Assembly (NCBI RefSeq): GCF_004362195.1 | Contig: NZ_SNWG01000001.1 | Coordinates: 558,001 to 622,000 of the forward strand | DNA length: 64,000 nucleotides | DNA from: Microbacterium sp. BK668 | GTDB taxonomy: Bacteria; Actinomycetota; Actinomycetes; Actinomycetales; Microbacteriaceae | Direction: 5' to 3' | Part shown: positions 1 to 64,000 of the stretch, one piece after another | Layout: each line of letters starts with the position of its first letter | Numbering within the stretch: position 1 is the first letter of the stretch | The notes under the pieces: model-generated | Databases searched by the model: none | Told to the model about the DNA's origin: nothing | Seen by the model: the letters and a program-made list of their open reading frames with translations, nothing else | Position numbers and translations under genes: made by a program

Positions 1-2107
1 TGCGCAGCACCTGAAGTGCTTCGGTGTAGGCGCCGGCCCGGCGCAGGACGCCCGCGACGTGAACGGCCACGACGGGCATCGGCAGGCTGTCGCCGAGACC
101 GCGCACGAGCTCGAGCGCGCGCTCACGATGACCGATCGCCTCTTCGAGAAGCGCCACCGCCACCTGACGGAACTTCGCCCACTCGACGCCCTGAACCTCG
201 CTGCGCGGCAGGAACTGCAGCTCGAGAGCCGCGCGACGGCACTGCCGCGGGTCGCCCGTCGCCGCCGCAGTGGCGGCGAGGTAGATGCGCGCGAGGTCGG
301 CGAAGGTGCTGCGGGCGCGGCCGAAGACGAGCACGCGGCGGAGCTCCAGTTCCGCCGCCTCCAGGTCGTGCGCCCAGTAGGCCAGAAGGCCCGCCGCCAC
401 GACGCCGCTGCCGCCGACGTACGCCACCCACGAGGTGGCATCGGCGTCGTCCTCGTCGAGGGTCGCCAGCACGACGCGCGCCGCCGTGTTGCGCCCGGCC
501 CAGACGAGCGCGTAGATCAGGACCTCGCGCGCTCGCCGTGTCAGAGAGCGATCGCCGACCGCCTCGGCCTCGCGCACCGCGGCCTCGAGGGTCTCGATCG
601 TCCGATCCGTGCTCGCGCGCAGACGCAGCTCGCTCCACCCGAGCACGAAGGTCAGCGCGGCGTGCTCCTTGGCGGTCAGCGTGCCGGCGGTCAGCAGCCG
701 CGCTCGCACAGCCGCGATGGCGGGACCGATCCGGTCACGCCCATCGACGAAGAAGAGACGCGCGATCTCGAGGGTCCGCTGCTCGATCTCGCTCTCGCCG
801 ATGCCGGCCTCTGCCGCATCGAAGAGCTCCCGCGCCCAGCGGTGCTCCCCGATCACATCGCGCGCGCAGGCCCGGATGAGATGGATGACCGGGCTCTCTG
901 CGCGATCCTGCGGGAGCGAGAGGCAGGCGCGGTCGAGGTCTGTCGCACCCTCGAGGGCGACGAGCGCCACCCAGGAGTTCAGGATGACCTTCTCGGCGCC
1001 GGCCGCATCGCCGAGGGCGACGAGATGGGCGACGGCCTCGAGGGGTCGCGTCACGGCGAGGAGCTCTCCGGCCAGGGCCCGCAGCGCCGCGAGGCGCTCC
1101 GGGCGCTCCTCGGCGAGCAGCTCGCGGCAGTGCCGGGCGAAAAGGGAGTGCCACCGGTAGAGCGGGCCGTCGAGGCCCTCGGTGCGCTCGAGGAAGAGGC
1201 CGAGACGGCGGCAGCGCTCCAGCATCCGTCCGCCATCGGAGCGCCCGGTGAGCGCCGAGGCGAACTCGGGGGTGAGCTCGTCGCAGACGGATGCCTCGAT
1301 CACGAACTCCGCGAGATCCGGGTCGAGGCCCGACAGGACGACATCGCGCACGTACTCGTGCATGAGCCCGCTCGTGCGGACGGCTGCCGAGCTGCGGGAC
1401 GAGCGTGGCGTGAGAAGGGCGAGTCGGACGGCGATCGGCCACCCGCCCGTATCGGCGTGGACGAGGGCCGCGTCGGCGTGGCTCTCCATCGCGACGGCGA
1501 GTGCCTCGATCTCCGGGCGCTCGAACGCGAGCGCCTCTGCGGCGATGACCGCCTCCGGGTGGCTCAGGACGAAGCGCGGCATGCGCAGTTCGAGCGAGGT
1601 CGTGCCGACGAGCACGACGCGCAGCGCCTGGGGCGGATGCTCGATGAGGTCGGCGAGGAGGCCGAACTCCAGGCTCTCGCCCGCGCGCTGCGCATCGTCG
1701 ATGACGAGGACGAACGGCTCCAGCATCCCCGCGAGCGCGGCCTCGAGCCGATGGTGCAGGTCGACCTTCTCGTTCGCCCCCACGAGCCCGAACGGATCGG
1801 TGACGCCGATCCGGTCGGGCGGCACGATGGATTCGATCGCCGCGATGACAGCGCCGTCCACCGCGTGCTCCTCGGTGGGAGCGAGAGCCAGCCAGGCGAC
1901 GAGGTGAGACGTGCGTTCGGCCCAGTTGCTGACGACGGTGGTCTTGCCGAAGCCGCTCGGGGCCGTGACGATCGTGACGGGGTTCTCGTCGACCATCTCG
2001 TCCAGCAGATCGAGGAGTGCCGGCCGCGGAAGGGAGACCGGCTGGCGCGTCGGCGGCTGATGCCGTGTCCACGTGCGAGAAGAAAGAGCACTCGCCTGCA
2101 ATGTCAT
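1..2107 (-). CDS. MalT/LuxR-type ATP-binding transcriptional regulator, C-terminal part outside window
   Basis: Large signal-transduction regulator of the MalT/LAL type. The N-terminal region holds an NTPase: Walker A APSGFGKTT lies near residues 47-55 and a Walker B-like FVLVIDDAQ near residue 111. Helical repeats follow (alternating Ala/Leu/Arg-rich segments with WAR/EALE signatures), as expected for the TPR-like sensor domain of MalT proteins. The open frame runs 702 codons from the ATG at 2107 to the window edge without a stop, so the LuxR-type HTH expected at the C-terminus would lie beyond position 1. A long open frame on the opposite strand is a GC-rich shadow. The ligand cannot be inferred. 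Family assignment is good, but the DNA-binding domain is not seen. Confidence 0.8.
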   Translation of the reverse strand, partial: MTLQASALSSRTWTRHQPPTRQPVSLPRPALLDLLDEMVDENPVTIVTAPSGFGKTTVVSNWAERTSHLVAWLALAPTEEHAVDGAVIAAIESIVPPDRIGVTDPFGLVGANEKVDLHHRLEAALAGMLEPFVLVIDDAQRAGESLEFGLLADLIEHPPQALRVVLVGTTSLELRMPRFVLSHPEAVIAAEALAFERPEIEALAVAMESHADAALVHADTGGWPIAVRLALLTPRSSRSSAAVRTSGLMHEYVRDVVLSGLDPDLAEFVIEASVCDELTPEFASALTGRSDGGRMLERCRRLGLFLERTEGLDGPLYRWHSLFARHCRELLAEERPERLAALRALAGELLAVTRPLEAVAHLVALGDAAGAEKVILNSWVALVALEGATDLDRACLSLPQDRAESPVIHLIRACARDVIGEHRWARELFDAAEAGIGESEIEQRTLEIARLFFVDGRDRIGPAIAAVRARLLTAGTLTAKEHAALTFVLGWSELRLRASTDRTIETLEAAVREAEAVGDRSLTRRAREVLIYALVWAGRNTAARVVLATLDEDDADATSWVAYVGGSGVVAAGLLAYWAHDLEAAELELRRVLVFGRARSTFADLARIYLAATAAATGDPRQCRRAALELQFLPRSEVQGVEWAKFRQVAVALLEEAIGHRERALELVRGLGDSLPMPVVAVHVAGVLRRAGAYTEALQVLR

Positions 2108-2285
2108 TCGCCCTCCCTTCACCCCCGAGGAAGCGGTGCCCGAAGCGGCGAGATCAGGTACCGGCGAACGCGCGCGGCTCACCCATAACAGACGAGCGGT
2201 GTGCGGACCGCAGACCTGACTCTACAGCGCAAGCGACGGTCGGGATGCGAAGGGCGGGTGAACCGCAACAAATCGGCATGCGACG

Positions 2286-2318
2286 AGAGGACCCCCGGCG
2301 GTACGCCGGGGGTCCTCT
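2286..2318 (-). terminator. Strong hairpin terminator after the PLDc_N/SHOCT gene
   Basis: Perfect 15-bp inverted repeat (2286-2300 and 2304-2318) with a 3-nt loop, placed 22 nt after the stop of the minus-strand gene that ends at 2340. There is no clear U-tract, which is common in GC-rich actinobacteria. It may also serve the opposite direction. Confidence 0.75.
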
Positions 2319-2339
2319 GCGCGATGGGGCTTGCGCGGT

Positions 2340-2732: not shown

Positions 2733-2874
2733 GGCATTTCTCCCAAGATTGAGTTTTCGTGTGCGGACCGGCGTCCGCACTTTCATTCTGTTGCTCGCAT
2801 GAACGAGGCGCCGTGCCCTTCACCCTTGGAAGATGAGGACGCGGCGCCCCGTGGCGAGGGGGCCGGTGACGGCC

Positions 2875-3725: not shown

Positions 3726-3896
3726 GGTCTTCCCTTCTGAAGTTTCGGGTCGACACCTGGTGGGCGGGAGCCGCCGGCCCGGCGGGATCAGCCCCCCGGC
3801 GTCGATCTCAAGCTATCCCCGGGGTTGTCGGGTGGATACCCCCGCGAAGGGCGCGCGTCGCGGGATTCACCCGTCGCGGGCGAGGGATGCTGCGAC

Positions 3897-5072: not shown

Positions 5073-5075
5073 GGC

Positions 5076-7431: not shown

Positions 7432-8166
7432 ATGTATTGGGTATGGTTCAGGATCGCGGCCGCGGCCACCGCCCTGTCGGGCGTCGTCGCAGGTCTCGTG
7501 GTCAATGTCGACCGGGCAGCGCGCCAGCAGCAGATGCTGGGCGACGTCTTGGCCAACTACTTCAGCCTGTTCACGATCGTGTCGACGCTGCTGAGCGTCG
7601 TCGTGCTCGCCGTCGCCGTCAACTGGTCGGAACGGCACCCTGGGACCTCGCCCGAGCCGATGGGGATCGCGCTCGGACTGGCCGCCGTGGCGGGGCCGAT
7701 CTTCCTGCTCGGCATCGTCTACAACGTCCTGCTGCGGGGCCTTCCGTCGGCCGTCGCGCTGGGGGACTCCGCCGGCATCGCCCTCCTCGACAAGTACGCC
7801 GCCGAGGTGCTGCACGTCGTCATGCCGATCTACTTCCTGATCGACCTGCTGCTGGCGCCGCGTCGGCGCGGACTGCCGTGGTGGTCGCTCGGCGTGCTCG
7901 TCGGCTACCCGATCACGTGGGTCACGTACACGATGGTGCGCGGCGAGCGCGTCGCGAGCCCCGACGGGACCACCCCGTGGTGGTACCCGTACCCGTTCCT
8001 CGACCCGCACATCGCGGGCGGGTACCGCTCGCCGCTCCTCTATATAGCGGTCATGACGGCGGGCTTCCTGGCGATCGGCGCCGTCATCATCGCCGTCGGC
8101 CGCCACCGCGAGAAGAGGGCGGCACGGGGTCGCACGCCCCGGGCACGCGGCGCGCTGATGATCTGA
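7432..8166 (+). CDS. Pr6Pr-type integral membrane protein (copy 2)
   Basis: 244 residues, six predicted helices. It repeats the landmarks of its neighbour: YFSLFTIVSTLLSVVVLAVA near 40-60, LGIVYNVLLRG near 98, AEVLHVVMPIYFLIDLLL near 124, and WWYPYPFLDPH near 183. A GGAAAGG ribosome-binding site precedes the ATG, unlike copy 1, so the duplicates differ in translation initiation. A 191-nt, relatively AT-rich gap separates the two genes, so this copy probably has its own promoter. It is followed by the terminator at 8182-8219. Function unknown. Confidence 0.75.
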   Translation: MYWVWFRIAAAATALSGVVAGLVVNVDRAARQQQMLGDVLANYFSLFTIVSTLLSVVVLAVAVNWSERHPGTSPEPMGIALGLAAVAGPIFLLGIVYNVLLRGLPSAVALGDSAGIALLDKYAAEVLHVVMPIYFLIDLLLAPRRRGLPWWSLGVLVGYPITWVTYTMVRGERVASPDGTTPWWYPYPFLDPHIAGGYRSPLLYIAVMTAGFLAIGAVIIAVGRHREKRAARGRTPRARGALMI

Positions 8167-8171
8167 CGTGA

Positions 8172-9707
<1,536 letters not shown>

Positions 9708-9743
9708 CCCTTTCCCGTGAAGGCATTCCGCGCACTCGCGGGA

Positions 9744-9812
9744 TAGAGTGCGAGACGGTGTCCCACGACCCGACGTGTGACACTGAGGACCGCGGTCGAT
9801 GAACCGCGGTCC
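9744..9812 (+). promoter_or_regulatory. Candidate -10 and leader hairpin ahead of the acylase gene
   Basis: TAGAGT at 9744-9749 is a plausible -10, giving a start near 9756. A perfect 10-bp inverted repeat (9787-9796 with 9803-9812, 6-nt loop) follows within the predicted leader. The hairpin could instead be the argG terminator read through from the left. There is no U-run. Confidence 0.4.
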
Positions 9813-9837
9813 CACTCCGCGTCTCCAGGAAGTGTCG

Positions 9838-23281: not shown

Positions 23282-23605
23282 ATGACGGTCCTCGAAGTGC
23301 TCAACACGATCTTCGCGGGCATCGCGTCGTGCGCCGCCGTCGCCGGCGCCCTCATCGCCTACCAGGCCCTCCTCATCTCCCGGCGCAGTCGTGAGAAGGC
23401 CGAGAGCGCCGAGAGGACGGCGACGGATGCCGCGGCATCCGATCTGCACACCCGCACCGCGGTCGCCGAAGCCCTCGAGGGACTGGCCGCCGGGTATGCG
23501 GTGGCGAGGCAGTCGGTCGCACCTCCCCCCGTCCCGGCGCCGACGCCGGACGAGCAGGCCCGGCGCCTGGATGACATCGCCGCGCGGCTTCGCCGCGGCC
23601 GGTAG
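23282..23605 (+). CDS. Small single-pass membrane protein, unknown
   Basis: 107 residues. One hydrophobic segment (about 10-31, FAGIASCAAVAGALIAYQAL) is followed by a basic Arg/Glu stretch and a Pro-rich linker, ending in a short amphipathic helix with DDIAARLRRGR. The family is unrecognised. Start supported by TACGAT at 23269-23274, 7 nt before the ATG, with no ribosome-binding site. Third-position GC bias is that of a real gene. It lies between nucS and a HAD phosphatase, all plus strand with separate promoters. Confidence 0.6.
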   Translation: MTVLEVLNTIFAGIASCAAVAGALIAYQALLISRRSREKAESAERTATDAAASDLHTRTAVAEALEGLAAGYAVARQSVAPPPVPAPTPDEQARRLDDIAARLRRGR

Positions 23606-37393: not shown

Positions 37394-39106
37394 GTGACCG
37401 TGACAGCTGAGCCGCGCGTGCTTTCGGGGCGCTATCGCGTCGACGAGCTTCTCGGCCGCGGCGGCATGGCGAGCGTGTACCGCGGGTACGATCTGACGCT
37501 CGGACGTGTCGTCGCGATCAAGATCCTCAAGCGCGACCTGGCGAACGACAACACCTTCCGCACCCGGTTCCGGCTCGAGGCGCAGGCCGCGTCGCGCATG
37601 TCGCATCCGACGATCGTGCGGGTGTACGACGCCGGAGAGGACAGCGAGTCCAGCCCCGACGGCTCGGTGCACCCGGTGCCGTTCATCGTCATGGAGCTCG
37701 TCCAGGGCCGCCTCCTGAAGGACGTCATCGCGGCAGGTCCCGTCCCGGTGACGGATGCCGTCCGCTACGTGGACGGCATCCTCGAGGCGCTGGAGTACTC
37801 GCACCGGGCCGGCGTCGTGCACCGTGACATCAAGCCCGGCAACGTGATGGTCACCCCGTCCGGGCAGATCAAGGTCATGGACTTCGGGATCGCCCGCGCC
37901 GTGTCGGACTCGTCGTCCACGGTCGCCGAGACGACGCAGATCCTCGGCACGGCGGCGTACTTCTCGCCGGAGCAGGCCAAGGGCGAGCCCGTCGACGCGC
38001 GAGCCGACGTGTACTCGACCGGCGTGGTGCTGTACGAGCTGCTCTCGGGCCGCCAGCCGTTCCGGGGCGAGTCGCCCGTCGCCGTGGCGTACCAGCACGT
38101 CAGCGAGACGCCCGTGCCGCCGTCGGAGATCAACGAGACCGTGCCGCGCTCGCTCGACACCGTGGCACTGCGAGCGCTCGCGAAGGACCCCTTCCAGCGC
38201 TACCAGGACGCGGCATCCTTCCGCGAAGCGCTCGACGCCACGATCGACGGCAAGTCGCCCTCCAAGCGGCAGGTCGGCGCGCTCACGAGCGAGCTCTACG
38301 GCCCCAACCCCCGGCAGGCGGCGGAGACCGCGCGGTCCCTTCGTCAGCTCAGCACCGACACGACGATGAAGCGCACGCAGGCGGGCCCTCCGGTCGCCTG
38401 GATCTGGGCCGGCGTCGCCGTGCTCGCCGTGCTCCTCATCTCGGTGCTGTTCTGGGTCGTGACGATCCCGCGCGAGAACCAGGTGCCCTCCAACGCCCGG
38501 ATCGTCCCGGACGTCACCGACATGTCGTACGACCGGGCGAACGAGATCCTCGGCGAGGAGGACCTCCTGGCGTTCCGGCAGGACGAGCCGAGCGGCGAGG
38601 TCGCGGAGGGGAACGTCATCCGCACGGATCCGGCAGCCGGAACGTCGGTCTCGCCCGGCCAGCAGGTGAGGGTCTACGTGTCCGCCGGTCAGCAGACGGT
38701 CGCGGTGCCGCCTCTCCAGGGCCTGAGCGAAGAGGCGGCGCGAGCGGCCATCGCCGACGCGCAGCTCGCCGTCGGCGCCGTGACCCCGCGCAACGACCCC
38801 GACCTCGCCCAGGGGACCGTCCTCTCGTCCGACCCCGCGTCCGGCTCGGAGCAGCCGGTCGGCAAGGTCGTGAACCTCGTCGTCGCGACGGGACTGGTCA
38901 CGATCGTGGATTACACCGGCTACACGGTGGATGCCGCACGAGCCGCCCTCGAGGCGCCTGAGGTCGCACTCACCGTGGAGACGGCGGAGGACACGTCGTG
39001 CCCGGCCAACAGTCCGCCCACGGTGCGGCAGCAATCGCTGGCGCCCGGGGATGTGCCCGTCCACTCCACGATCGTCCTGACGTTCTGCTCCGGGCCTACG
39101 GGCTGA
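37394..39106 (+). CDS. pknB: PASTA-domain Ser/Thr kinase PknB
   Basis: 570 residues. Kinase core about 13-280 with Lys43 in [21 protein letters not shown] and MDFGIARAV. A membrane helix lies at about 333-355, followed by three PASTA repeats (about 365-430, 431-497 and 498-568) that bind muropeptides or beta-lactams. PknB phosphorylates FhaA and other envelope proteins, and PstP reverses it. TAGGCT at 37368-37373 suggests its own promoter with a 14-nt leader, in addition to read-through from pknA 53 nt away. Confidence 0.95.
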   Translation: MTVTAEPRVLSGRYRVDELLGRGGMASVYRGYDLTLGRVVAIKILKRDLANDNTFRTRFRLEAQAASRMSHPTIVRVYDAGEDSESSPDGSVHPVPFIVMELVQGRLLKDVIAAGPVPVTDAVRYVDGILEALEYSHRAGVVHRDIKPGNVMVTPSGQIKVMDFGIARAVSDSSSTVAETTQILGTAAYFSPEQAKGEPVDARADVYSTGVVLYELLSGRQPFRGESPVAVAYQHVSETPVPPSEINETVPRSLDTVALRALAKDPFQRYQDAASFREALDATIDGKSPSKRQVGALTSELYGPNPRQAAETARSLRQLSTDTTMKRTQAGPPVAWIWAGVAVLAVLLISVLFWVVTIPRENQVPSNARIVPDVTDMSYDRANEILGEEDLLAFRQDEPSGEVAEGNVIRTDPAAGTSVSPGQQVRVYVSAGQQTVAVPPLQGLSEEAARAAIADAQLAVGAVTPRNDPDLAQGTVLSSDPASGSEQPVGKVVNLVVATGLVTIVDYTGYTVDAARAALEAPEVALTVETAEDTSCPANSPPTVRQQSLAPGDVPVHSTIVLTFCSGPTG

Positions 39107-46363: not shown

Positions 46364-46404
46364 GGATGCCCCGCCTCGGCGTCGCGCGCTGAGACGGGGC
46401 ATCC
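46364..46404. terminator. Hairpin terminator built from an inverted GGATGCC pair
   Basis: 14-bp stem (46364-46377 with 46391-46404, one mismatch) with a 13-nt loop, between the convergent CGNR gene and the gyrA operon end. Each arm contains GGATGCC or its complement. Confidence 0.75.
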
Positions 46405-54985: not shown

Positions 54986-56425
54986 TCAGCGGCCGTTGCG
55001 GCCGAGCTGAGCGGTGATCTCGGAGACCTGGTTGTAGATGGAGCGGCGCTCCTTCATGAGGTCGCTGATCTTCTTGTAGGCATACATGACCGTCGTGTGG
55101 TCGCGGTTGCCGAAGAGCTGACCGATCTTGGGCAGCGACAGGCTTGTGCGTTCGCGGCAGAGGTACATCGCGATCTGGCGAGCCGTGGCGACCGCCTGGG
55201 AGCGACTCGACCCGTAGAGGTCGTCGACCGACAGCTTGAAGTAGGCCGCCGTGGCGGTGATGATGTCGGTCGGCGAGATGACGTTCGCGTCGTCCTGATC
55301 GACGATGTCGCGGAGCACCGTCTGCGCGAGCGACATGTCGAGGGTCGACCGGTTGAGGCTCGCGAACGCCGAGACGCGGATGAGAGCGCCCTCGAGCTCG
55401 CGGATGTTCGACGACACGACGGTCGCGATGTACTCGAGCACCTCGTCGGGGATGTGCAGGCGCTCGGACTGCGCCTTCTTGCGGAGGATCGCGATGCGCG
55501 TCTCGAGGTCGGGCGCCTGGACGTCGGTGATGAGCCCCCACTCGAACCGGCTGCGCATGCGGTCCTCGAAGCCGGTGAGGTGCTTGGGCGGGACGTCGCT
55601 GGTGATCACGACCTGCTTGTCGTGGTCGTGCAGCGTGTTGAAGGTGTGAAAGAACGCCTCCTGCGTCTCGGCGCGGCCCTGGAGGAATTGGATGTCGTCG
55701 ATGAGGAGGATGTCCACGTCTCGATACCGCGCCTGGAATGCGGAGCCGCGGTTGTTCGCGATCGAGTTGATGAAGTCGTTCGTGAACTCCTCGCTCGAGA
55801 CGTAGCGCACGCGGATGCCGGCATACAGGCTGATCGCGTAGTCGCCGATGGCGTGGAGCAGATGTGTCTTGCCGAGGCCCGAGTCACCGTAGATGAAGAG
55901 CGGGTTGTAGGCCTTCGCCGGTGCTTCGGCGACGGCGACCGCGGCCGCATGCGCGAAGCGGTTGGACTGGCCGATGACGAAGTTGTCGAAGGTGTATTTC
56001 GGGTTCAGCCGCGAATCGGTGCGCGCGGAGGTCAGGTCAACCGGCTCGTCGATGCGGGGACGGATGACCCCGGTGGGCGCGGGAGCGGGAGCCACCGCGC
56101 TATGTCCCGGCGTCTGGACCGGGATGGGCACCGTCAGGTGCTGATCGGCGAGGTCGGGATTGACTACCACGCGGAAGGTGGTCGCGACCGGATCGGCCTG
56201 CGGGACGCGCGAAAGAGCCTCCATGATGGGGGCCCGCATGCGCTTGTTGATCTGAGCGGCCGTGAGGTCGTTGGGCACATCGAGGTAGAGCGTCCCGCTC
56301 ATGACACCCTGGGGCACGGCGAGGTTGAGGAAGCCGTGGAGCTGTGGAGTGACGCGATCGTCGACCGTCAGCTCATCCAGCACAGCCGCCCAGACGGGAA
56401 CATCTGGAATGTCGTGCTGAGCCAT
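54986..56425 (-). CDS. dnaA: Chromosomal replication initiator DnaA
   Basis: 479 residues. Domain I (about 1-75), a Pro/Ala-rich linker (75-140), then AAA+ with Walker A GDSGLGKT (180-187) and Walker B ILLIDDIQFLQG near 244-255, and domain IV with the helix-turn-helix (GNRDHTTVMYA near 436-446). Opens oriC, whose boxes lie just downstream. GGGGGG precedes the ATG. A promoter and a DnaA box upstream (56482-56530) point to autoregulation. Confidence 0.97.
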   Translation of the reverse strand: MAQHDIPDVPVWAAVLDELTVDDRVTPQLHGFLNLAVPQGVMSGTLYLDVPNDLTAAQINKRMRAPIMEALSRVPQADPVATTFRVVVNPDLADQHLTVPIPVQTPGHSAVAPAPAPTGVIRPRIDEPVDLTSARTDSRLNPKYTFDNFVIGQSNRFAHAAAVAVAEAPAKAYNPLFIYGDSGLGKTHLLHAIGDYAISLYAGIRVRYVSSEEFTNDFINSIANNRGSAFQARYRDVDILLIDDIQFLQGRAETQEAFFHTFNTLHDHDKQVVITSDVPPKHLTGFEDRMRSRFEWGLITDVQAPDLETRIAILRKKAQSERLHIPDEVLEYIATVVSSNIRELEGALIRVSAFASLNRSTLDMSLAQTVLRDIVDQDDANVISPTDIITATAAYFKLSVDDLYGSSRSQAVATARQIAMYLCRERTSLSLPKIGQLFGNRDHTTVMYAYKKISDLMKERRSIYNQVSEITAQLGRNGR

Positions 56426-56481
56426 GGCCCCCCCGGGTAGATCGATGCGCCTCAGGCTCAGGGAGAGTGGCATCCCGTGCC

Positions 56482-56530
56482 TGTGGATAACTGCCGGAGC
56501 CACGCTAGTTCCCACGGGTCTGTCGAGCAA
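56482..56530 (-). promoter_or_regulatory. dnaA promoter with a DnaA box
   Basis: TTGCTC (56530-56525), 17 bp, TAGCGT (56507-56502) on the minus strand form a -35/-10 pair about 80 bp before the dnaA ATG. TGTGGATAA at 56482-56490 lies just after the expected start point, so DnaA could repress its own gene. A variant box TGTGCATAA is at 56581-56589. Confidence 0.7.
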
Positions 56531-56609
56531 ACCCCACTGTAAAGCGACGGGCGTGTCGGTGCCAGCGTGGGCGGATCGGCTGTGCATAATGCCAGGCCCG
56601 GAGCCCGGT

Positions 56610-56638
56610 TTGAGTTCTCAGGCGACTCGACGTAGCCT
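56610..56638 (+). promoter_or_regulatory. rpmH promoter
   Basis: TTGAGT (56610-56615), 17 bp, TAGCCT (56633-56638). The leader of about 85 nt contains no further gene. It drives the rpmH-rnpA-yidD-yidC block. Confidence 0.65.
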
Positions 56639-56729
56639 TAATCGGTTGACTTATGCCCTCGCGGCAGTCCCTGTAACCCTTGTCTCCGGTCTGAGCGTCC
56701 CGGTGACACCCTGATCCGGAAGCGAATCC

Positions 56730-56867
56730 ATGAGCAAGCGCACCTTCCAGCCCAACAACCGTCGTCGCGCCAAGAAGCACGGCTTCCGTGCCCGCATGCG
56801 CACCCGCGCCGGTCGCGCCATCCTCTCGGCTCGTCGCGCCAAGGGGCGCACCGAGCTCTCGGCCTGA
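56730..56867 (+). CDS. rpmH: Ribosomal protein L34
   Basis: 45 residues, the highly basic L34 sequence ([20 protein letters not shown] near 3-22) with the usual length. Part of the large ribosomal subunit. ATG at 56730 after GATCCGGAAGCGAATCC, so no strong ribosome-binding site is visible. First gene of the rpmH-rnpA-yidD-yidC cluster. Confidence 0.97.
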
Positions 56868-56876
56868 CACCCAGCG

Positions 56877-57215
56877 GTGCTGGCGAGGCCGAACCGACTC
56901 ACCCGCGGAGCGGAATACAAGGCCGTCGTCCGTCGGGGACGCCGTTGCGCGGCCGCGCACACCGTCACCTACGTCATGACCTCGGCCGACTCCGGTGCGG
57001 CCCGGTTCGGGTTCATCGTCAGCAAGCAGGTCGGATCAGCCGTCGTGCGCAACACCGTGCGCCGACGGCTGAAGGCTGTCTGCCGCGAGGCCCTGGGCGA
57101 CGTCCGACCCGGTGCGGAAGTCGTGATCCGCGCGCTCCCTTCGGCGGCCGGCGCGGACTACTCCGAACTGCGTGACGAAGTTCAGCGCTGCCTGGCCCGA
57201 AGGGCGGCCGCATGA
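56877..57215 (+). CDS. rnpA: RNase P protein component
   Basis: 112 residues. RNPA motif FGFIVSKQVGSAVVRNTVRR near 44-63 with RRRLK following, the RNA-binding signature. Processes tRNA 5' ends with the RNA subunit, whose gene is not in this window. GTG at 56877 lies 9 nt after the rpmH stop; the stop overlaps yidD by 4 nt. Confidence 0.96.
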   Translation: MLARPNRLTRGAEYKAVVRRGRRCAAAHTVTYVMTSADSGAARFGFIVSKQVGSAVVRNTVRRRLKAVCREALGDVRPGAEVVIRALPSAAGADYSELRDEVQRCLARRAAA

Positions 57216-57562
57216 GCGTGCTGCCGGCATATGCCGTCGGCGAGGGCCGGCTCGAGGCATCCACTGTTCCTGCTGCGGTGCCGCTCATCCCCCGCAACCT
57301 CGGCCTGTCTCTCCTGCACGCGTATCGCGCCACCATCTCGCACACGTATGGAGATGTCTGCAAGTACTACCCGTCGTGCTCGGCCTACGCGGTCGGTGCC
57401 GTGCAGCAGCACGGACTTCTGAAGGGCAGCGCCCTCACCGCGGCCCGGATCGCCCGCTGCCACCCATGGGCAGAGGGCGGCATCGATGACGTCCCGCCAC
57501 ACCGGCGGTTCCGTTACGACCTGACCCCGCACGGTTTCGTCGTGCCCCTGAGAAAGGACTGA
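57212..57562 (+). CDS. yidD: Membrane protein insertion efficiency factor YidD
   Basis: 116 residues. Core IPRNLGLSLLHAYRATISHT near 27-46 and YGDVCKYYPSCSAYAVGAVQ near 47-66 with three conserved Cys, and the HPWAEGGIDDVP motif near 88. A small peripheral protein assisting YidC. ATG overlaps the rnpA stop. The extra N-terminal 25 residues are unlike the shorter family members. Confidence 0.95.
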   Translation: MSVLPAYAVGEGRLEASTVPAAVPLIPRNLGLSLLHAYRATISHTYGDVCKYYPSCSAYAVGAVQQHGLLKGSALTAARIARCHPWAEGGIDDVPPHRRFRYDLTPHGFVVPLRKD

Positions 57563-57565
57563 TCC

Positions 57566-58702
57566 GTGCAGGATCTGCTTCTGCTAGCTTCCAGTACCCC
57601 CGCGCCCCAGGCCGGCGGGGGCTTCGATCTCATCGGCATCATCCTCTGGCCGCTGAAGTGGCTCGTCGAGCTCGTGCTCGTCGCGTGGCATGCCCTCTTC
57701 ACCTTCATCGGTCTTCCGCCGGGCGCCGGCCTCACGTGGGTGCTGGCGATCATCGGCCTCGTCCTCGTCGTGCGCTCGGCGATGATCCCGCTCTTCGTGC
57801 GTCAGATCAAGAGCCAGCGCAAGATGATGGAAATCGCCCCTGAACTGCGGAAAGTTCAGGAGAAGTACAAGGGCAAGAAGGACCAGCTGTCACGCGAGGC
57901 CATGAGCCGCGAGACGATGGCCCTGTACAAGAAGCACGGGACGACACCGGTGTCGAGCTGCCTCCCGCTCCTCGTGCAGATGCCCGTGTTCTTCGCGCTC
58001 TTCAGCGTGCTCAACGACGTCTCCCGGCACGCCCGCCAGGGGATCGGCGGCGTCGGCCTGCTGAACGCGGAGCTGACCCAGTCCTTCTACAACGCGAAGC
58101 TCTTCGGCGTGGCCTCTCTGCACGAGACGCTCATCGACGCCTTCAACACCGGCAACACGGCGGCGATCGCGATCCTCCTGACGCTCGTCGTCCTGATGAT
58201 CGTGTCGCAGTTCTTCACCCAGCTGCAGATCATCTCGAAGAACCTGTCCCCCGAGGCCAAGACCGGCCAGGCGTACCAGATGCAGAAGGTGATGCTCTAC
58301 ATCCTTCCGTTCGCCTTCGTCTTCTCGGGTGTCTTCTTCCCGCTCGGCGTCGTCATCTACTGGTTCGTCTCGAACCTGTGGACGATGGGCCAGCAGTTCC
58401 TCGTCATTCGCGAGATGCCCACCCCCGGCTCGGAAGCGGCGAAGGCCCGGGAGGAGCGCCTGGCCCGCAAGGGCAAGGCGATCGACTCCTCGGGCAAGGT
58501 CGTCCCCATGGAGAAGTACCAGGCCGAGCAGCAGCGGCTCCTCGAGGAGGCCGAGCGTGCTCGCGCCGCCGCTCCGAAGCGTCAGCAGCCGGTCAGCAAG
58601 CAGCGCGCGAAGAAGCAGGGCCAGAAGGGCGGATCGCCGAAGCCCGGCACGGGCGGCTCAGGTGGGGCTTCGGGCAAGCAGCCCGGAACGGCGAACACCT
58701 GA
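57566..58702 (+). CDS. yidC: Membrane protein insertase YidC (Oxa1 type)
   Basis: 378 residues. Five helices with the 60-kDa inner-membrane core: PLFVRQIKSQRKMMEIAPEL near 74-93, a hydrophobic groove region, and YILPFAFVFSGVFFPLGVVI near 242-261. The Ala/Lys/Gly-rich C-terminus (from about 320) is cytoplasmic, basic and can bind ribosomes. Inserts membrane proteins with or without SecY. GTG at 57566 starts 3 nt after the yidD stop with AAAGGAC upstream. Confidence 0.96.
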   Translation: MQDLLLLASSTPAPQAGGGFDLIGIILWPLKWLVELVLVAWHALFTFIGLPPGAGLTWVLAIIGLVLVVRSAMIPLFVRQIKSQRKMMEIAPELRKVQEKYKGKKDQLSREAMSRETMALYKKHGTTPVSSCLPLLVQMPVFFALFSVLNDVSRHARQGIGGVGLLNAELTQSFYNAKLFGVASLHETLIDAFNTGNTAAIAILLTLVVLMIVSQFFTQLQIISKNLSPEAKTGQAYQMQKVMLYILPFAFVFSGVFFPLGVVIYWFVSNLWTMGQQFLVIREMPTPGSEAAKAREERLARKGKAIDSSGKVVPMEKYQAEQQRLLEEAERARAAAPKRQQPVSKQRAKKQGQKGGSPKPGTGGSGGASGKQPGTANT

Positions 58703-58800
58703 TCGCGGGCCGGGCGGCGACGTTCCTCGTCGTCCGGCTGACCCGGTCACACCGGTCGACGGCGGCCGGTGACCCCACGCCCGACATCAGCACCGCAGAC

Positions 58801-58850
58801 CCCCGCACAACTCCGCAGAACTCCGCAGAACCCCCGCAGACCTTCGCAGA
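58801..58850 (+). repeat. Short tandem repeat in the jag leader
   Basis: Five degenerate units of about 10 bp (CTCCGCAGAA consensus) from 58801 to 58850 lie upstream of the jag ATG. No alternative start codon in this region is credible. The region between the yidC stop and the repeat holds no gene I can support. Confidence 0.6.
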
Positions 58851-58864
58851 TCATCGAGGACCAG

Positions 58865-59377
58865 ATGACCACCACCGACCCCATCGAATCCGTCGCCCCC
58901 GAGCGCGCTGCCGCGACGGTCGAGCAGCTCGAGCAGGAAGGCGACATCGCCGCCGACTACATCGAGGAGCTCCTCGACATCGCCGACATCGATGGCGACC
59001 TCGCTCTCGACGTCCGTGCCGGCCGCGCGTACGTGTCGATCGAAGCCGAGGACGAGGCGTCGCTTGCGCTCCTCTCGGCGCCCGACACCGTGCAGGCGCT
59101 GCAGGAGCTTACCCGCATCGCCGTGCAGAGCCGCACCGGACGCTTCTCGCGCCTGATCCTGGACATCGGCGGATCCCGCGACACCCGCGAGCGTCAGCTT
59201 GCTGCCCTTGTCGAGCGCGCCATCGCCCGCCTCGACGACGGCGCGACGCAGGCGTCCCTGCCGGCGATGTCGAGCTATGAGCGCAAGCTCGTGCATGACA
59301 TCGTGGCCGAGCGAGGCTTCGTTTCGGAGTCGTACGGCGAGGGCGCCGACCGCCACACCGTCATTCGTCGCGGCTGA
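58865..59377 (+). CDS. jag: Jag/KhpB-type RNA-binding protein
   Basis: 170 residues. KH-like segment (LDVRAGRAYVSIEAEDEASL near 43-62) and a C-terminal R3H domain (MSSYERKLVHDIVAERGFVS, then SYGEGADRHTVI). The long Jag-N domain of Bacillus homologues is missing, as in other Actinobacteria. Associated with YidC in the rpmH-yidC cluster, possibly regulating division or translation. The ATG at 58865 is taken for the family length; an upstream in-frame ATG would include the tandem repeat. Confidence 0.9.
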   Translation: MTTTDPIESVAPERAAATVEQLEQEGDIAADYIEELLDIADIDGDLALDVRAGRAYVSIEAEDEASLALLSAPDTVQALQELTRIAVQSRTGRFSRLILDIGGSRDTRERQLAALVERAIARLDDGATQASLPAMSSYERKLVHDIVAERGFVSESYGEGADRHTVIRRG

Positions 59378-59378
59378 C

Positions 59379-59392
59379 GTTTCACGTGAAAC
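59379..59392. promoter_or_regulatory. parS site 1
   Basis: GTTTCACGTGAAAC, the 14-nt core of the parS palindrome recognised by ParB, between jag and rsmG and only 4 nt before the rsmG ATG. Confidence 0.93.
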
Positions 59393-59396
59393 GCTG

Positions 59397-60023
59397 ATGG
59401 CCGACTTCGAAGCAGAGCCGGCGGCCGCCGCGGAGATATTCGGCGACCGCATCGACCAGGCACGTCGGTTCACGCGAGCCCTAGCCGACGAGGGAGAAGA
59501 ACGCGGACTCATCGGCCCGCTCGAGCCCCCACGGCTGTGGACCCGCCATGTGCTCAACAGCGCGGTGGCGGCCCCGCTGTTCTCGGGCCGTGCCGCCGAC
59601 GTGGGGTCCGGCGCCGGCTTGCCCGGCCTCGTGCTCGCGATCGCACGGCCGGACGTGGAGTGGATCCTGATCGAGCCCATGGAACGCCGGGTCACCTGGC
59701 TGAACGAGCAGGTGGCGGCCCTCGGGCTCGCAAACGTCGAGGTGCTGCGCGCTCGTGCCGAGGAGTGGAAGCGCGGTCCGATCCTGGATGCCGCGACCGC
59801 CCGCGCGGTGAGTGCCCTGCGCACTCTCGTCCCACTCACCGCTCCCCTGGTGCGCGACGGCGGCGAGCTGATCCTTCTCAAGGGCGCCGGGGCGGCGAAC
59901 GAGATCGAGGCGGCAGCGAAGCCTCTGCGGAAGTTCGGGATCACCGATGCCCGGGTCGAGATCGTGGGGGAAGGTCTGCTCGCTGAGCCGACCCGCGTCG
60001 TGCGAGGCACCGTACGGCGATGA
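59397..60023 (+). CDS. rsmG: 16S rRNA m7G527 methyltransferase
   Basis: 208 residues of class I methyltransferase fold: GRAADVGSGAGLPGLVLAIA near 64-83 binds S-adenosylmethionine, and IEPMERRVTWLNEQVAALGL near 94-113 follows. Modifies G527 of 16S rRNA; loss gives low-level streptomycin resistance in other bacteria. ATG at 59397 begins 5 nt after a parS site and has no clear ribosome-binding site. Upstream in-frame codons belong to the parS region. Confidence 0.94.
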   Translation: MADFEAEPAAAAEIFGDRIDQARRFTRALADEGEERGLIGPLEPPRLWTRHVLNSAVAAPLFSGRAADVGSGAGLPGLVLAIARPDVEWILIEPMERRVTWLNEQVAALGLANVEVLRARAEEWKRGPILDAATARAVSALRTLVPLTAPLVRDGGELILLKGAGAANEIEAAAKPLRKFGITDARVEIVGEGLLAEPTRVVRGTVRR

Positions 60024-60043
60024 TCTGACGCCGGGCGCCGGGT

Positions 60044-60057
60044 GTTTCACGTGAAAC
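60044..60057. promoter_or_regulatory. parS site 2
   Basis: The full 16-nt consensus TGTTTCACGTGAAACA occupies 60043-60058, 20 bp after rsmG, before the palindromic repeat array. Confidence 0.95.
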
Positions 60058-60116
60058 ATCGTGCGGCGCCGAGGTCGCCTCATCGGCGCACGGTGGTCGT
60101 CGGCGGGTTTTGTGTC

Positions 60117-60678
60117 GTCCCCTCCTCTCGGTCGCTGGCGCTCCCTCGCTCGGGGACGGGCTCTACGGAGGCAGCCCGGCCTGGAGCCGGCTTGTTTCGG
60201 TCCCCGAGCGAGCGGAGCGAGAGGAGGGGACGGCGGTGAGCCCGGGTGCTCGTGGGTTCGGTGTCGTCCCCTCCTCTCGGTCGCTGGCGCTCCCTCGCTC
60301 GGGGACCGGTTCCAGGGAGGCTGCCCGGCACGAGCAGGACTGATCCCGTCCCCGAGCGTGCGGAGCGAGAGGAGGGGACGGCGGTGAGCATGCGGTCGAC
60401 GTGGGTTCGGTGTCGTCCCCTCCTCTCGGTCGCTGCGCTCCCTCGCTCGGGGATCGGCTCCAGGGAGGCTGCCCGGCCTGGAGCCGGCTTGTTCCGGTCC
60501 CCGAGCGAGCGGAGCGAGAGGAGGGGACGACGGTGAGCATGCGGTAGACGCGGGCTTGGTGTCGTCCCCTCCTCTCGGTCGCTGGCGCTCCCTCGCTCGG
60601 GGACCGGCTCCAGGAAAGCTGCCCGGCCCGGAGCCGGCTTGTTTCGGTCCCCGAGCGAGCGGAGCGAGAGGAGGGGAC
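60117..60678. repeat. Four tandem 149-bp units, each a long imperfect palindrome
   Basis: Units begin with GTCCCCTCCTCTCGGTCG at 60117, 60266, 60415 and 60564, exactly 149 bp apart, and end with the inverse arm at 60231, 60379, 60528 and 60678. Each arm is about 35-40 nt and pairs with its partner to make a stem-loop of about 115 nt. Units differ at a few sites, and unit 3 lacks one G in the left arm. All frames through the array are Arg/Pro-rich artefacts. The array is flanked by parS sites. It is not CRISPR-like, as units are palindromic and long. Confidence 0.93.
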
Positions 60679-60721
60679 GGCGGTGCGAAGAGGTGGCACG
60701 AGCGTTCAGATCGCGGGCAGT

Positions 60722-60735
60722 GTTTCACGTGAAAC
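60722..60735. promoter_or_regulatory. parS site 3
   Basis: GTTTCACGTGAAAC, with TG before it, between the palindromic array and parA. Confidence 0.95.
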
Positions 60736-60865
60736 GGTGCGCGCGGCGACGCCGCATCGAGCGCGATTCGTGCTGAACAGCCCGCGACGGTGTGGATGGC
60801 GAGGAGGCGCGGGTAGGCGCGGCTAGAGTGGAAAGGAGCTTTGACGGCACGCGAACAGGGAGAGC

Positions 60866-60879
60866 GTTTCACGTGAAAC
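60866..60879. promoter_or_regulatory. parS site 4, containing the parA start codon
   Basis: GTTTCACGTGAAAC; the parA GTG lies at 60873-60875 inside it. ParB binding would thus cover the parA initiation region. Confidence 0.93.
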
Positions 60880-61805
60880 AGCCCGAGAACACCGCGACCG
60901 CGGCCCCCTTCTCGCTCGATGACACCCCTCTTGCTCGCGAACTCGCCGACCTCACAGCGCGTCGACGGGCCCTCGAGGGCGTCGAGATCACGTTGAGCGG
61001 TCGTACCCGCGTACTCACCGTCTCCAACCAGAAGGGTGGCGTCGGAAAGACGACGACCACCGTCAACGTCGCAGCGGCCCTGGCTTCCGTAGGCGCGCGC
61101 GTCCTCGTGATCGATCTGGATCCGCAGGGCAACGCCTCGACGGCGCTCGGTGTCCCGCACACCGCTGACATTCCCTCGGTATACGACGTCCTGATCGACG
61201 AGTTCCCTCTGGCTGACATCGTCCAGACGAGCCCCGAATCACCGAACCTCCTGTGCGCGCCGAGCACGATCCACCTCGCCGGCGCCGAGATCGAACTCGT
61301 GTCGCAGGTTGCGCGCGAGCACCGTCTGCGAACCGCGCTCGACGAGTACCTCGCCAATTCCGGCGTGCGCCTCGACTTCGTGCTCATCGACTGCCCGCCG
61401 TCGCTCGGGCTCCTCACCATCAACGCCTTCGCCGCCGCGCAGGAGCTGCTCATCCCCATCCAATGCGAGTACTACGCACTGGAGGGCCTCAGCCAGCTGC
61501 TCGGCACGGTGCGGATGATCCAGAAGCACCTCAACCCGCGTCTTCACCTGTCGACGATCATGCTCACCATGTACGACGGCCGCACTCGACTGGCGCAGCA
61601 GGTGGCAGAGGAGGTGCGGCAGCACTTCCCGAAGGAGGTGCTCCAGACGGTGATTCCGCGATCGGTCCGGGTGTCCGAGGCGCCGAGCTTCGGCCAGACC
61701 GTCATCGCCTACGATGGGCAGTCGGCCGGAGCCGTGGCCTACCGTGAGGCGGCGGTCGAGATGATCAAACGCGACACAGCAACAGAAAGCGAAGTGGACT
61801 CCTGA
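60873..61805 (+). CDS. parA: Chromosome-partitioning ATPase ParA (Soj)
   Basis: 310 residues. Deviant Walker A KGGVGKTTT (from Lys54; catalytic Lys59) and Walker B LIDCPPSLGLL near 172. The N-terminal segment has an extra Ala/Arg-rich stretch. Drives segregation with ParB and parS. GTG at 60873 is preceded by AGGGAGAG at 8-nt spacing; the longer frame to 60792 would run through parS and lacks a ribosome-binding site. The stop overlaps the parB ATG (TGATG). Confidence 0.95.
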   Translation: MKQPENTATAAPFSLDDTPLARELADLTARRRALEGVEITLSGRTRVLTVSNQKGGVGKTTTTVNVAAALASVGARVLVIDLDPQGNASTALGVPHTADIPSVYDVLIDEFPLADIVQTSPESPNLLCAPSTIHLAGAEIELVSQVAREHRLRTALDEYLANSGVRLDFVLIDCPPSLGLLTINAFAAAQELLIPIQCEYYALEGLSQLLGTVRMIQKHLNPRLHLSTIMLTMYDGRTRLAQQVAEEVRQHFPKEVLQTVIPRSVRVSEAPSFGQTVIAYDGQSAGAVAYREAAVEMIKRDTATESEVDS

Positions 61806-62788
61806 TGGCCAAGAGAACCGGTCTGGGTAGAGGCATCGGAGCGCTCATCCCGACGAGCGAGGCGACAGAGTCGCGTCCCGTGGACGTGCTCTTCCCGCGC
61901 GGAAGTGCGGCGACGGCCACCGCCGTGGCCGAGCCCGAGGACCCCTTCGACGACGACCCTGCGGTCGAGGAGCTCGTCACCGTTCCCGGGGCCCGGCTCG
62001 TCCACATCGACCCGCACTCCATCGTCCCGAACCCGCGGCAGCCGCGGACGCATTTCGATTCGGAAGACCTCGCGGAGCTCGTGCACAGCGTGCGGGAGTT
62101 CGGCGTTCTCCAGCCGGTCGTCGTCCGCGACACGGGCGAGGGCACCTTCGAGCTCATCATGGGTGAGCGTCGCACCCGGGCCGCCCGCGAAGCGGGACTC
62201 GACTCCATCCCCGCGGTCATCCGCGACACCGCCGATGAGCATCTCCTGCGCGACGCGCTGCTCGAGAACCTGCACCGCAGCGAGCTGAACCCCCTCGAAG
62301 AGGCATCGGCGTACCAGCAGCTTCTCGAGGATTTCGGCATCACCCAGGAGGAGCTCGCCAGCCGGATCGGCCGGTCACGTCCGCAGATCAGCAACACGAT
62401 CCGCCTGCTCAAGCTCCCCGTACCCGTGCAGCAGCGCGTCGCCGCCGGCGTGCTGAGCGCGGGTCACGCTCGCGCCATCCTGTCTCTCGAGACCCCGGAG
62501 GCGATGCAGCGCCTGGCCGACAAGATCGTGAACGAGGACCTCTCGGTGCGCGCTGCCGAGGCGGCCGCGAAGGGAGGGGATGCCGGGGACCGGCGTACGC
62601 TCAGGCCGAAGGCCGGCTCGCGCCGCGATCATCTCGACGAAGTGGCCGAGCGGCTCGGCGACCGCCTCAACACGCGGGTGAAGATCTCGCTCACGGCGAG
62701 AAAAGGCCAGATCAGTATAGATTTCGCCACGATCCATGATCTGAACCGGATCCTGGCTGAGCTCGGCGACGAAGGCTACGCGTCGTAG
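61805..62788 (+). CDS. parB: Chromosome-partitioning protein ParB (Spo0J)
   Basis: 327 residues. CTP-binding motif GERRTRAARE starts at Gly120. The ELASRIGRSRPQISNTIRLL segment near 183-202 is the parS-reading HTH, and the C-terminal LTARKGQISIDFATIHDLNR mediates dimerisation. Binds parS sites and spreads on the neighbouring DNA. ATG overlaps the parA stop. Its last 13 nt overlap the convergent sigma-factor gene. Confidence 0.96.
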   Translation: MAKRTGLGRGIGALIPTSEATESRPVDVLFPRGSAATATAVAEPEDPFDDDPAVEELVTVPGARLVHIDPHSIVPNPRQPRTHFDSEDLAELVHSVREFGVLQPVVVRDTGEGTFELIMGERRTRAAREAGLDSIPAVIRDTADEHLLRDALLENLHRSELNPLEEASAYQQLLEDFGITQEELASRIGRSRPQISNTIRLLKLPVPVQQRVAAGVLSAGHARAILSLETPEAMQRLADKIVNEDLSVRAAEAAAKGGDAGDRRTLRPKAGSRRDHLDEVAERLGDRLNTRVKISLTARKGQISIDFATIHDLNRILAELGDEGYAS

Positions 62789-64000
62789 CGGACGGAGCCG
62801 CCCACCCCGGCCGCTCGGCGACGGAGCACCTCGGCCTCGGCGTCGTTTCCGGCCAGCGAAGCCGCAAGCAGGAACGCCGAGGCCGCGGCATCCGTCTCTC
62901 CCATGCGCTCGAGCAGCTCGCCGCGCACGCCGTGGTACGGGCGGAACTCCGCCAGCTCCGGCCCCAGCTCGTCGACGAGAGCCAGAGCGGCCTGCGGTCC
63001 ATCGCGCATCGACACGCCGACGGCCCGGTTGAGGCGCACCACCGGCGTGGGCGACAGGGTTACCAGCGCGTCGTAGAGTGCGACGATCCTGCTCCAATCG
63101 GTGTCGTCGACGCTTCTGGCCACGGCATGGCATTCCGCGACGGCGGCCTGGAGTCCGTAGTAGCCGAGGCCACGGTCGAATGACGCGGCCGTGGCGAGCG
63201 CCTCTCGTCCGCGGGCGATGGCCGACCGGTCCCACCGGGAGCGGTCCTGCTCGGCCAGGGTCAGAGGCAGGCCCTCTGCATCGCTTCGCGCGGCGAAGCG
63301 CGACGACTGGAACTCCATGAGCGCCGTCAGGGCGTAGATCTCGGGCTCGCCAGGAGCGAGCGCCGCGAGCTGTCGCGCGAGGCGGACCGCCTCCCGCGCC
63401 ACCGCGGGGCGCACCGGGTGGACTCCGTCGGTGGGCGCATACCCCTCGGTGAAGAGCAGGTAGATGACCTGCAGCACCGATGCCAGACGTGCGGGACGCT
63501 CGGACCGGTCCGGTATCTCGAACGGCACATCGGCCGCCGCGAGTGCGCGCTTCGCACGGACGATCCGCTGCTGCACCGCCGGGACCGTGAGCAGCATGAC
63601 CCGGGCGATCTGCTCGGTCGTGAGCCCCGCCACCGTCCGCAGCGTCAGGGTGAGTCGCGCCGCCGGCGCGAGCAGGGGATGGCACGCGACGAAGACGAGG
63701 CGGAGGACGTCATCGTCTATGCGGTCGGGGTCACCCGTCGACTCGACCGGATCCTCACGTTCGGAGAGCACGACCTCGTGTCCGAGCACGTCCATGCGCT
63801 GCTCCAGCCGCTCCCTCCGCCGCCACCCGTCGATCGCACGCCGCTTGGCCACCGTCAGCAGCCACGCGCCCGGATTGTCGGGGATGCCGGAGCGCGGCCA
63901 CGAGGCGAGGGCTTCGAGCAGCGCCTCCTGCGCGAGGTCCTCGGCCCACGGGAAGTCGCCGGTGTGACGGGTCAGAGCGGCGACGATGCGCGCCGACTCG
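62776..64000 (-). CDS. ECF sigma factor with a long C-terminal extension, 5' end outside window
   Basis: 408 codons within the window. Region sigma2 begins beyond 64000 (AEDLAQEALLEALASWPRSG is visible near the edge), sigma4 follows (AGLTTEQIARVMLLTVPAVQ, QRIVRAKRAL), and then a roughly 200-residue helical C-terminal domain (GLGYYGLQAAVAECHAVARS, ELAEFRPYHGVRGELLERMG) that resembles TPR-like tails of the ECF42-type groups. No anti-sigma is adjacent inside the window; the partner usually lies upstream, that is to the right of 64000. Convergent with parB, overlapping it by 13 nt. Start not seen. Confidence 0.85.
   Translation of the reverse strand, partial: ESARIVAALTRHTGDFPWAEDLAQEALLEALASWPRSGIPDNPGAWLLTVAKRRAIDGWRRRERLEQRMDVLGHEVVLSEREDPVESTGDPDRIDDDVLRLVFVACHPLLAPAARLTLTLRTVAGLTTEQIARVMLLTVPAVQQRIVRAKRALAAADVPFEIPDRSERPARLASVLQVIYLLFTEGYAPTDGVHPVRPAVAREAVRLARQLAALAPGEPEIYALTALMEFQSSRFAARSDAEGLPLTLAEQDRSRWDRSAIARGREALATAASFDRGLGYYGLQAAVAECHAVARSVDDTDWSRIVALYDALVTLSPTPVVRLNRAVGVSMRDGPQAALALVDELGPELAEFRPYHGVRGELLERMGETDAAASAFLLAASLAGNDAEAEVLRRRAAGVGGSVRYDA

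Follow-up and report, generated by a model that had tools for sequence, protein, structure and literature searches.

Why does one seven-letter word, GGATGCC, recur on both strands throughout a 64,000-bp stretch of the chromosome of Microbacterium sp. BK668, a member of the Microbacteriaceae? The stretch analysed here (the window, C1:558001-622000 of the genome designated G000) had been described in an earlier note as unusually rich in this word, and our analysis follows it from the window into the rest of the genome, into related genomes and into phage DNA. We find that GGATGCC is a DNA-level signal, present in excess and equally on both strands, spaced near-randomly, enriched in intergenic DNA and in every reading register, conserved around gyrA and, where copies lie close together outside genes, paired as hairpins mostly at the ends of genes, and that other words, or dialects, take its place in related lineages. 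Sequence comparison of this kind suggests that the word is likely a DNA uptake sequence (DUS), a self-recognition tag by which a competence pilus would preferentially import DNA of its own kind.

GGATGCC in coding and intergenic DNA

Direct counting gives 98 copies in the window (53 of GGATGCC and 45 of its complement GGCATCC, at 69.8% GC), close to the roughly balanced 95 or so that the earlier note had reported. The 15 copies that it had expected agree well with Markov models of orders 0 to 3, which give 15.1, 15.7, 19.4 and 25.0; the expectations at orders 4 and 5 (47.2 and 74.6) approach the observed count because high Markov orders absorb GGATGCC itself. By z-score the word ranks first among all window 7-mers at orders 1 and 3, is outranked at order 2 by three AT-rich 7-mers with one or two occurrences each, and lies outside the top 12 window 7-mers at order 5. 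The whole genome (3,734,514 bp in 7 contigs) holds 5,212 copies, 2,607 forward and 2,605 reverse, and the word read backwards, which served as a composition control, totals 312 (130 and 182 per strand). Across 61 stretches of this genome, the window included (1,233,061 bp), there are 1,674 copies against 369, 459 and 886 expected at orders 2, 3 and 4, with GGATGCC first at all three orders among 7-mers that occur at least 10 times; its 21 single-base variants stand at 0.4-1.7 times the order-3 expectation, compared with 3.6 times for GGATGCC. The earlier note had allowed that a genome-wide count might fall near the Markov expectation, and neither the 5,212 copies overall nor the 1,674 against 369-459 in 1.23 Mb does so.

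A simple gene finder based on codon usage called 1,115 genes in the 61 stretches (88% coding) and places 1,415 copies within genes, 249 outside them and 10 across a gene boundary, at a higher density outside genes (1.72 per kb) than within (1.30 per kb). The non-coding copies exceed the 44, 67 and 134 expected at orders 2, 3 and 4, by 5.6-fold at order 2, and the coding copies exceed the 448.6 +/- 14.3 found in 30 codon shuffles, in which synonymous codons were permuted over all genes with every protein and the codon usage preserved. All six reading registers lie above this null, by 1.4- to 21.7-fold, the weakest with 414 copies against 297. The earlier claim that GGATGCC forces rare codons holds in the register Ala GCA + Ser TCC (340 copies against 15.6; GCA is a rare codon) and in the register Asp GAT + Ala GCC (536 against 98.9). 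The frequency of these two registers among the coding copies speaks for a functionless by-product of codon-pair or mutational preference. Codon-shuffled genes nevertheless yield 449 copies where real genes hold 1,415, every register rises above the null, the excess extends to non-coding DNA, single-base variants are not similarly enriched, and other words replace GGATGCC in sister lineages. Codon-pair preference acting alone, with no intergenic excess, had been named in the earlier note as a competing account; we regard it as scarcely credible, and the codon shuffles together with the non-coding excess led us to reject it. Downstream of the core, the non-coding copies favour G (60%) or T (22%), then C (71%), G (69%), G (51%) and C (61%), for an extended consensus close to CGGATGCC[G/T]CGGC, a core with a weaker flank.

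The distribution of copies along the chromosome bears on two further accounts. A DnaA domain at C1:613523-614008 (about 55.5-56.0 kb in the window) falls inside the window, which therefore likely spans the replication origin. The arm counts, for which the terminus was assumed to lie opposite the origin, come from stretches of C1 sampled below 2.4 Mb, the window and contigs 2-6 being excluded. On the right arm there are 396 forward and 421 reverse copies, on the left 118 forward and 129 reverse. Within these sampled arms 525 of 1,064 copies are co-oriented with replication (p = 0.69), with no replichore bias. Gaps between copies are near-exponential with a mean of 704 bp and a slight surplus below 20 bp (42 against 29), and no gradient in copy density from origin to terminus is evident on inspection of the sampled stretches. 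The likely origin region, with the DnaA domain and ParB, occupies window positions 54986-62788; except in the small contig C5, GC skew stays near zero (-0.043 to 0.041) across the 61 stretches, and no change of sign can be seen around the origin.

Thousands of near-randomly spaced sites across a chromosome could be bound by a plentiful protein that organises the nucleoid or chromosome, but this account has to face the lack of replichore polarity and of an evident gradient, the presence of copies in coding DNA at all registers, and hairpin pairs that it leaves unexplained, and we judge it highly unlikely. Of the chromosome-architecture role proposed in the earlier note, the form oriented by replication was rejected on the absence of polarity. 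A Chi-like recombination word, read by an actinobacterial AdnAB (or AddAB-like) helicase-nuclease and changing with the enzyme, is unlikely, if somewhat better matched: GGATGCC resembles Chi sites in being a strongly over-represented, conserved, non-palindromic word of 7-8 bases, and recombination words differ between genera. Known Chi words are, however, mostly co-oriented with replication, which GGATGCC is not; several dialects occur here inside one genus; and a recombination word gives no reason for the inverted pairs at gene ends of this genome. A search of 30 genomes found RecC in none, hence the reader would not be RecBCD (AdnAB and AddAB were not searched for), and RecBCD Chi was rejected on this result and on the lack of co-orientation.

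Inverted pairs at gene ends

Inverted pairs of GGATGCC and GGCATCC had been claimed at 8182-8219 and 46364-46404, where they were taken for terminators. Both pairs are present, with copies at 8186/8209 and 46364/46398 (Table 1), and both fold strongly as RNA, the first at -34.4 kcal/mol (z -5.5) and the second at -36.2 kcal/mol (z -3.6), with 0 of 200 shuffles as good in either case. Their role as terminators is only partly upheld: such folds are strong and lie mostly at gene ends, but a terminator scan of 8000-8400 found none (the second hairpin site lies outside that scan) and T tails are weak.

Table 1. Copies of GGATGCC and their inverted pairs in the window
Feature	Position	Strand	Description
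Dispersed GGATGCC	1..64000	53 on +, 45 on -	direct count
Inverted pair GGATGCC (8186-8192) / GGCATCC (8209-8215)	8186..8215	+	hairpin in the gap separating two called genes; not followed by a T-run
Inverted pair GGATGCC (46364-46370) / GGCATCC (46398-46404)	46364..46404	+	hairpin between convergent called genes
Perfect 16-bp palindrome GGATGCCGCGGCATCC	23425..23440		one forward and one reverse copy, at 23425 (+) and 23434 (-)
Close inverted pair within called gene	37753..37781		copies at 37753 (+) and 37775 (-)

In the genome as sampled, non-coding copies separated by under 60 bp are mostly arranged with a forward copy followed by a reverse one ('+-' 29 against '-+' 4, '++' 4 and '--' 6), an arrangement that leads less clearly among coding copies (32 against 22, 15 and 10). 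Pairs within a 45-bp limit number 13 (in 12 regions) among 173 convergent, 12 among 505 tandem and 3 among 177 divergent intergenic regions, and the difference between convergent and divergent regions, counted by regions, has p = 0.018. At least one '+-' pair occurs in every set of the dialect cross-table described below. In Neisseria, PMC1852404 counts 94 uptake-sequence hairpins for 268 tail-to-tail regions and 10 for 270 head-to-head regions, and describes paired uptake sequences within terminators. The Neisseria DUS shares with the word of our genome both the inverted-pair arrangement and the gene-end context, and the comparison with Neisseria and Haemophilus drawn in the earlier note has its parallel in what that source describes for the Neisseria sequence (PMC1852404).

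Conservation and dialects in Microbacteriaceae

The nearest gyrA matches in a scan of named genomes are Microbacterium, at up to 91% identity, followed by other Microbacteriaceae. The 35 genus genomes counted, our own included, each hold 1,273 to 6,796 copies of GGATGCC, and counts run from 541 to 2,007 in 23 genomes drawn from 19 other families of the order; the median density is 1,391 per Mb in 32 genus genomes and 262 per Mb in the 23 others. All 80 gyrA loci retrieved were counted, and whole-genome counts cover the genomes behind 50 of them. The word is found widely across Microbacteriaceae. Counts are high in most Microbacterium, in Compostimonas and Pseudolysinimonas and in each of the eight Agromyces searched (3,526 to 6,266 copies), and close to background in M. 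mitrae, in an uncultured Microbacterium (2-1120) and in both Microcella putealis and Microcella alkaliphila.

Conservation was assessed by blastn of gyrA neighbourhoods from Microbacterium and near kin. Of the 80 loci, 39 entered the comparison, 33 of them high-word and 6 low-word, and alignments were dropped if they were shorter than 300 bp, above 95% identical or displaced by over 12 kb; the 7,553 aligned stretches count pairs both ways, and the cells are not independent. Between high-word loci, aligned GGATGCC is identical in 12,104 of 26,300 cases (0.460), compared with 0.309 for all 7-mers and only 0.084 for the synonymous-type variant GGACGCC. Passing from high-word to low-word loci, 563 of 3,547 copies remain intact (0.159), under the background of 0.228; in the opposite direction 563 of 1,230 do so (0.458; background 0.231), and low-word loci among themselves keep the word in 30 of 133 (0.226; background 0.224). 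This pattern supports the word without proving it, because some other 7-mers of the gyrA region are conserved as well or better, among them GGATGTC (0.673) and AGATGCC (0.653).

Several lineages poor in GGATGCC are strongly enriched in other words, as k-mer counts in sampled stretches reveal. TGGTTCCG occurs 141 times against 11.5 expected in M. mitrae and 33 times against 2.2 in the uncultured Microbacterium (both at order 3), and GGATGCGC 114 times against 14.6 in Microcella putealis, while two words share the genome of Microcella alkaliphila (GGATGCTC, 56 against 9.6, and GGATGCGC, 55 against 11.4). GGATGCTG is enriched in Microbacterium sp. Gd 4-13 (50 against 8.5) and Microbacterium sp. 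MPKO10 (83 against 10.0), GGATGGCC in the genus member G032 (50 against 7.8), and GGATGCGG in PS02066 (21 against 2.2 at order 2, in a single 22.5-kb locus), the scan for this last dialect covering 32 of the 80 gyrA loci. Whole-genome counts in 33 genomes set two of these words apart: TGGTTCCG reaches 1,186/1,186 and, in M. mitrae, 1,457/1,460 copies per strand in two genomes and 15 to 217 in the other 31, and GGATGCTG reaches 1,652/1,703 (MPKO10), 969/1,002, 839/772 and 835/790 in four genomes and 43 to 461 in the other 29. In the cross-table each dialect word is densest in its own set, and in Gd 4-13 GGATGCC at 43.3 per 100 kb still equals GGATGCTG at 40.8. Two genomes, G033 and G099, hold GGATGCC and GGATGCTG together at about 1,000 copies or more per strand each, and are possible dialect transitions.

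The dialects follow phylogeny, clustering on a gyrA tree of 40 rows (39 of the 80 loci and the window). Labels that we set from word counts need 9 changes on this tree (minimum 7) against a mean of 13.8 when shuffled, with 0 of 200 shuffles as low; those of L011, L046, L060 and L074 rest on a weak excess in one 22-kb locus. TGGTTCCG forms a fully supported pair inside a Microbacterium clade of mostly GGATGCC carriers, as does GGATGCGG a fully supported pair, one of whose two labels (L011) is weak. Three genomes (G066, G106 and G107) could be assigned a dialect only weakly, from single 22-kb loci. No single word stood out in Arthrobacter castelli or in families f2, f5, f6 and f12, for each of which 80-119 kb was sampled; the strongest 8-mer in that set is CGACGGCG, with 109 copies against 31.5, in A. 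castelli.

Two side observations extend this survey. In G043, a member of another family of the order, four stretches (L253-L256, 80 kb) contain GCCGATGC 60 times against 15.4 and GCCGATGCG 41 times against 5.7, with two inverted close pairs; another actinobacterial family may therefore have a word of the uptake type. Loci of the M. testaceum clade such as L034 and L038 are enriched in GGATGCCA beside GGATGCCG (12 against 0.7), a possible sub-dialect.

The uptake reading and its candidate machinery

Words as numerous as GGATGCC would be expected to persist only where something keeps producing or protecting them. If the word is a DUS, a surface receptor would read approximately GGATGCC[G/T]CG, tagged fragments would enter through ComEA/ComEC and then recombine, and each import would spread the tag in a form of biased gene conversion; a change of receptor would favour a new word while the old word decays, producing a new dialect. 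The pilus would be of the Flp/Tad type, in keeping with a gene set, two tad clusters and comEA/comEC, that recalls the transformable Micrococcus luteus, and hairpins would be cheap to form where a word and its complement are both common. Uptake bias would thus account for strand equality, near-random spacing, enrichment in every register, hairpins and dialects, of which Chi, methylation or a nucleoid protein explain fewer. Among the roles that the earlier note had offered, the uptake signal fits best, with gyrA conservation and a lower density in five of six phages adding to these features, while the evidence speaks against a Chi of the RecBCD type and against a signal oriented by replication.

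The phage counts also bear on a different form of self-recognition. Six Microbacterium phages carry 97 copies of GGATGCC in 229,021 bp against 58 expected at order 2, and five of the six have 0.24-0.53 copies per kb, much below the host-genome density. Such a difference would suit a methylase, restriction or other self-marking defence word kept abundant as a label of self, and GGATGCC includes GGATG/CATCC and GCATC, the targets of the restriction enzymes FokI and SfaNI. Restriction words are, however, usually avoided rather than enriched, the six phages together are not depleted below expectation, and a self label gives no reason for the extended flank or the hairpins; this account is decidedly unlikely.

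The genome of strain BK668 encodes components from which a DNA uptake system could be built. The comEA and comEC genes lie at L159:7662-8267 and 8369-10609, the latter with a ComEC domain family match; a compact tad-2-like cluster adjoining topA (L257:2132-4828) comprises tadA, a fused tadB/C, flp (65 aa), tadE and tadF; and a second tad cluster, with a tad ATPase (T2SSE family match), lies at C1:2305020. Apart from the ComEC and T2SSE matches, com and tad genes were named by reading the sequence and gene order against PMC4322843, comEA and the second tad cluster in this genome only. The genome also carries a type IVa pilus operon at C1:3042305-3054072 (L142:2305-14072), with pilB, pilC, pilT, pilD, three N-methyl pilins and pilM recognised by Pfam, which was run on this operon and on ten window open reading frames, and pilN and pilO by gene order only. 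Among relatives, TadB/C of tad-2 was found in all 30 genomes searched (E < 1e-41 in all 27 family members, weak in three outsiders) and ComEC in all 80 of the 108 genomes in which it, PilM and PilC were sought, 30 being the number also searched for RecC; PilM and PilC occur in the same 32 of the 80, PilC patchily within the genus. In activated sludge, Microbacterium sp. is reported among the cells transformed by an added synthetic plasmid, with 90 Hi-C links to M. oxydans contigs (PMC10257627), which supports competence in the genus.

Pasteurellaceae uptake signal sequences (USS) have a density near 1 per kb, a likeness to GGATGCC. They also share with it a short core with a longer, weaker flank, form hairpins, in their case within terminators, and exist in two known types (PMC1852404, PMC12616744); they differ in word and in phylum, and have A/T tracts where the flank here is GC-rich. 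The DUS of Neisseriaceae, read by the type IVa minor pilin ComP, resembles the present word in its dispersed copies, at least 1,000 in number, in its genic and intergenic placement and in its inverted pairs at gene ends, and both have lineage-specific dialects (PMC3630211, PMC1852404). The differences are that the words here are unrelated to it, that the host is a high-GC Gram-positive and that the T tails are weak. Transformation of Micrococcus luteus through its Flp pilus requires a pair of tad clusters, tadB/C being fused in the one called tad-2, and comEA/EC is counted in the set (PMC4322843). The gene content found here, flp included, matches this; that paper mentions no uptake sequence, and transformation of strain BK668 is a prediction.

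Several results weigh against the uptake reading. Word-dependent uptake and its candidate receptor are predictions only. The 29 non-coding hairpins have a weak T tail, with 3.1 T in the next 12 bases against 1.8 expected; eight Agromyces loci have no '+-' bias (4 '+-', 4 '-+', 4 '--', 1 '++'), nor has M. mitrae ('++' 18, '+-' 7, '-+' 7, '--' 2), and several dialect sets have one to three '+-' pairs only. The low-word genomes G002, G026 and G029, outside the sampled set, have no assigned dialect. The five phages of low density hold 78 copies in 211.5 kb against 54 expected and are not depleted below expectation, and phage Efeko (L158, 17,491 bp) has 19, near host density and about five times expectation. 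The sludge transformation says nothing for specificity, because the plasmid described there was foreign and synthetic. Tad and ComEC occur in every genome searched, including A. castelli and family f6 (with weak TadB/C), where no word stood out, and their presence is non-discriminating for that reason. Finally, PilC, present in 25 of the 63 genomes examined from the family, does not track how densely the word occurs (median 1,320 per Mb against 1,191, p = 0.96) and was not found in 24 of 41 genomes with more than 1,000 copies per Mb. The type IVa pilus with ComP, which the pil operon of our genome had led us to expect as reader, was discarded on this independence; a ComP-type receptor is unlikely because of the 24 high-word genomes in which PilC was not found, a further difference from Neisseriaceae. 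By elimination and by analogy, which fall short of proof, the Flp/Tad pilus is the better predicted candidate.

To our knowledge, DNA uptake sequences have so far been recognised only in Neisseriaceae and Pasteurellaceae, two Gram-negative families. Among the openly licensed papers listed in our searches none describes an uptake word for Microbacteriaceae or other Gram-positives, a report elsewhere being possible. On balance we favour, with less assurance than the uptake role itself, the proposal that a third uptake-sequence system evolved independently in Microbacteriaceae, one read by a Flp/Tad pilus and new to Gram-positives, in which receptor change would have rewritten genomes into at least five dialects (GGATGCC, GGATGCTG, GGATGCGC/TC, GGATGGCC and TGGTTCCG), each lineage taking up mainly its own DNA. 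If so, this would be the first uptake-password system outside the two Gram-negative families, self-recognition at uptake would be a trait that evolves repeatedly and with another class of pilus, and natural competence would be predicted throughout a large bacterial family that is common in soil and on plants. Adding the word to DNA would then offer a handle for transforming Microbacteriaceae, and the dialects would provide a natural series for finding the receptor and for testing genome-wide rewriting of a tag.

Two smaller results concern mobile DNA. A ParB search returned no Microbacterium plasmid among the 60 matches listed. The poorest of the 20-kb stretches sampled from our genome, L126 (C1:1120001-1140000, GC 0.664), has 9 copies of GGATGCC against 27 expected (P = 5e-5; 0.003 after correction for 61 stretches); it contains a gene read as an IS-type transposase and, with its lower GC, is likely an acquired island.

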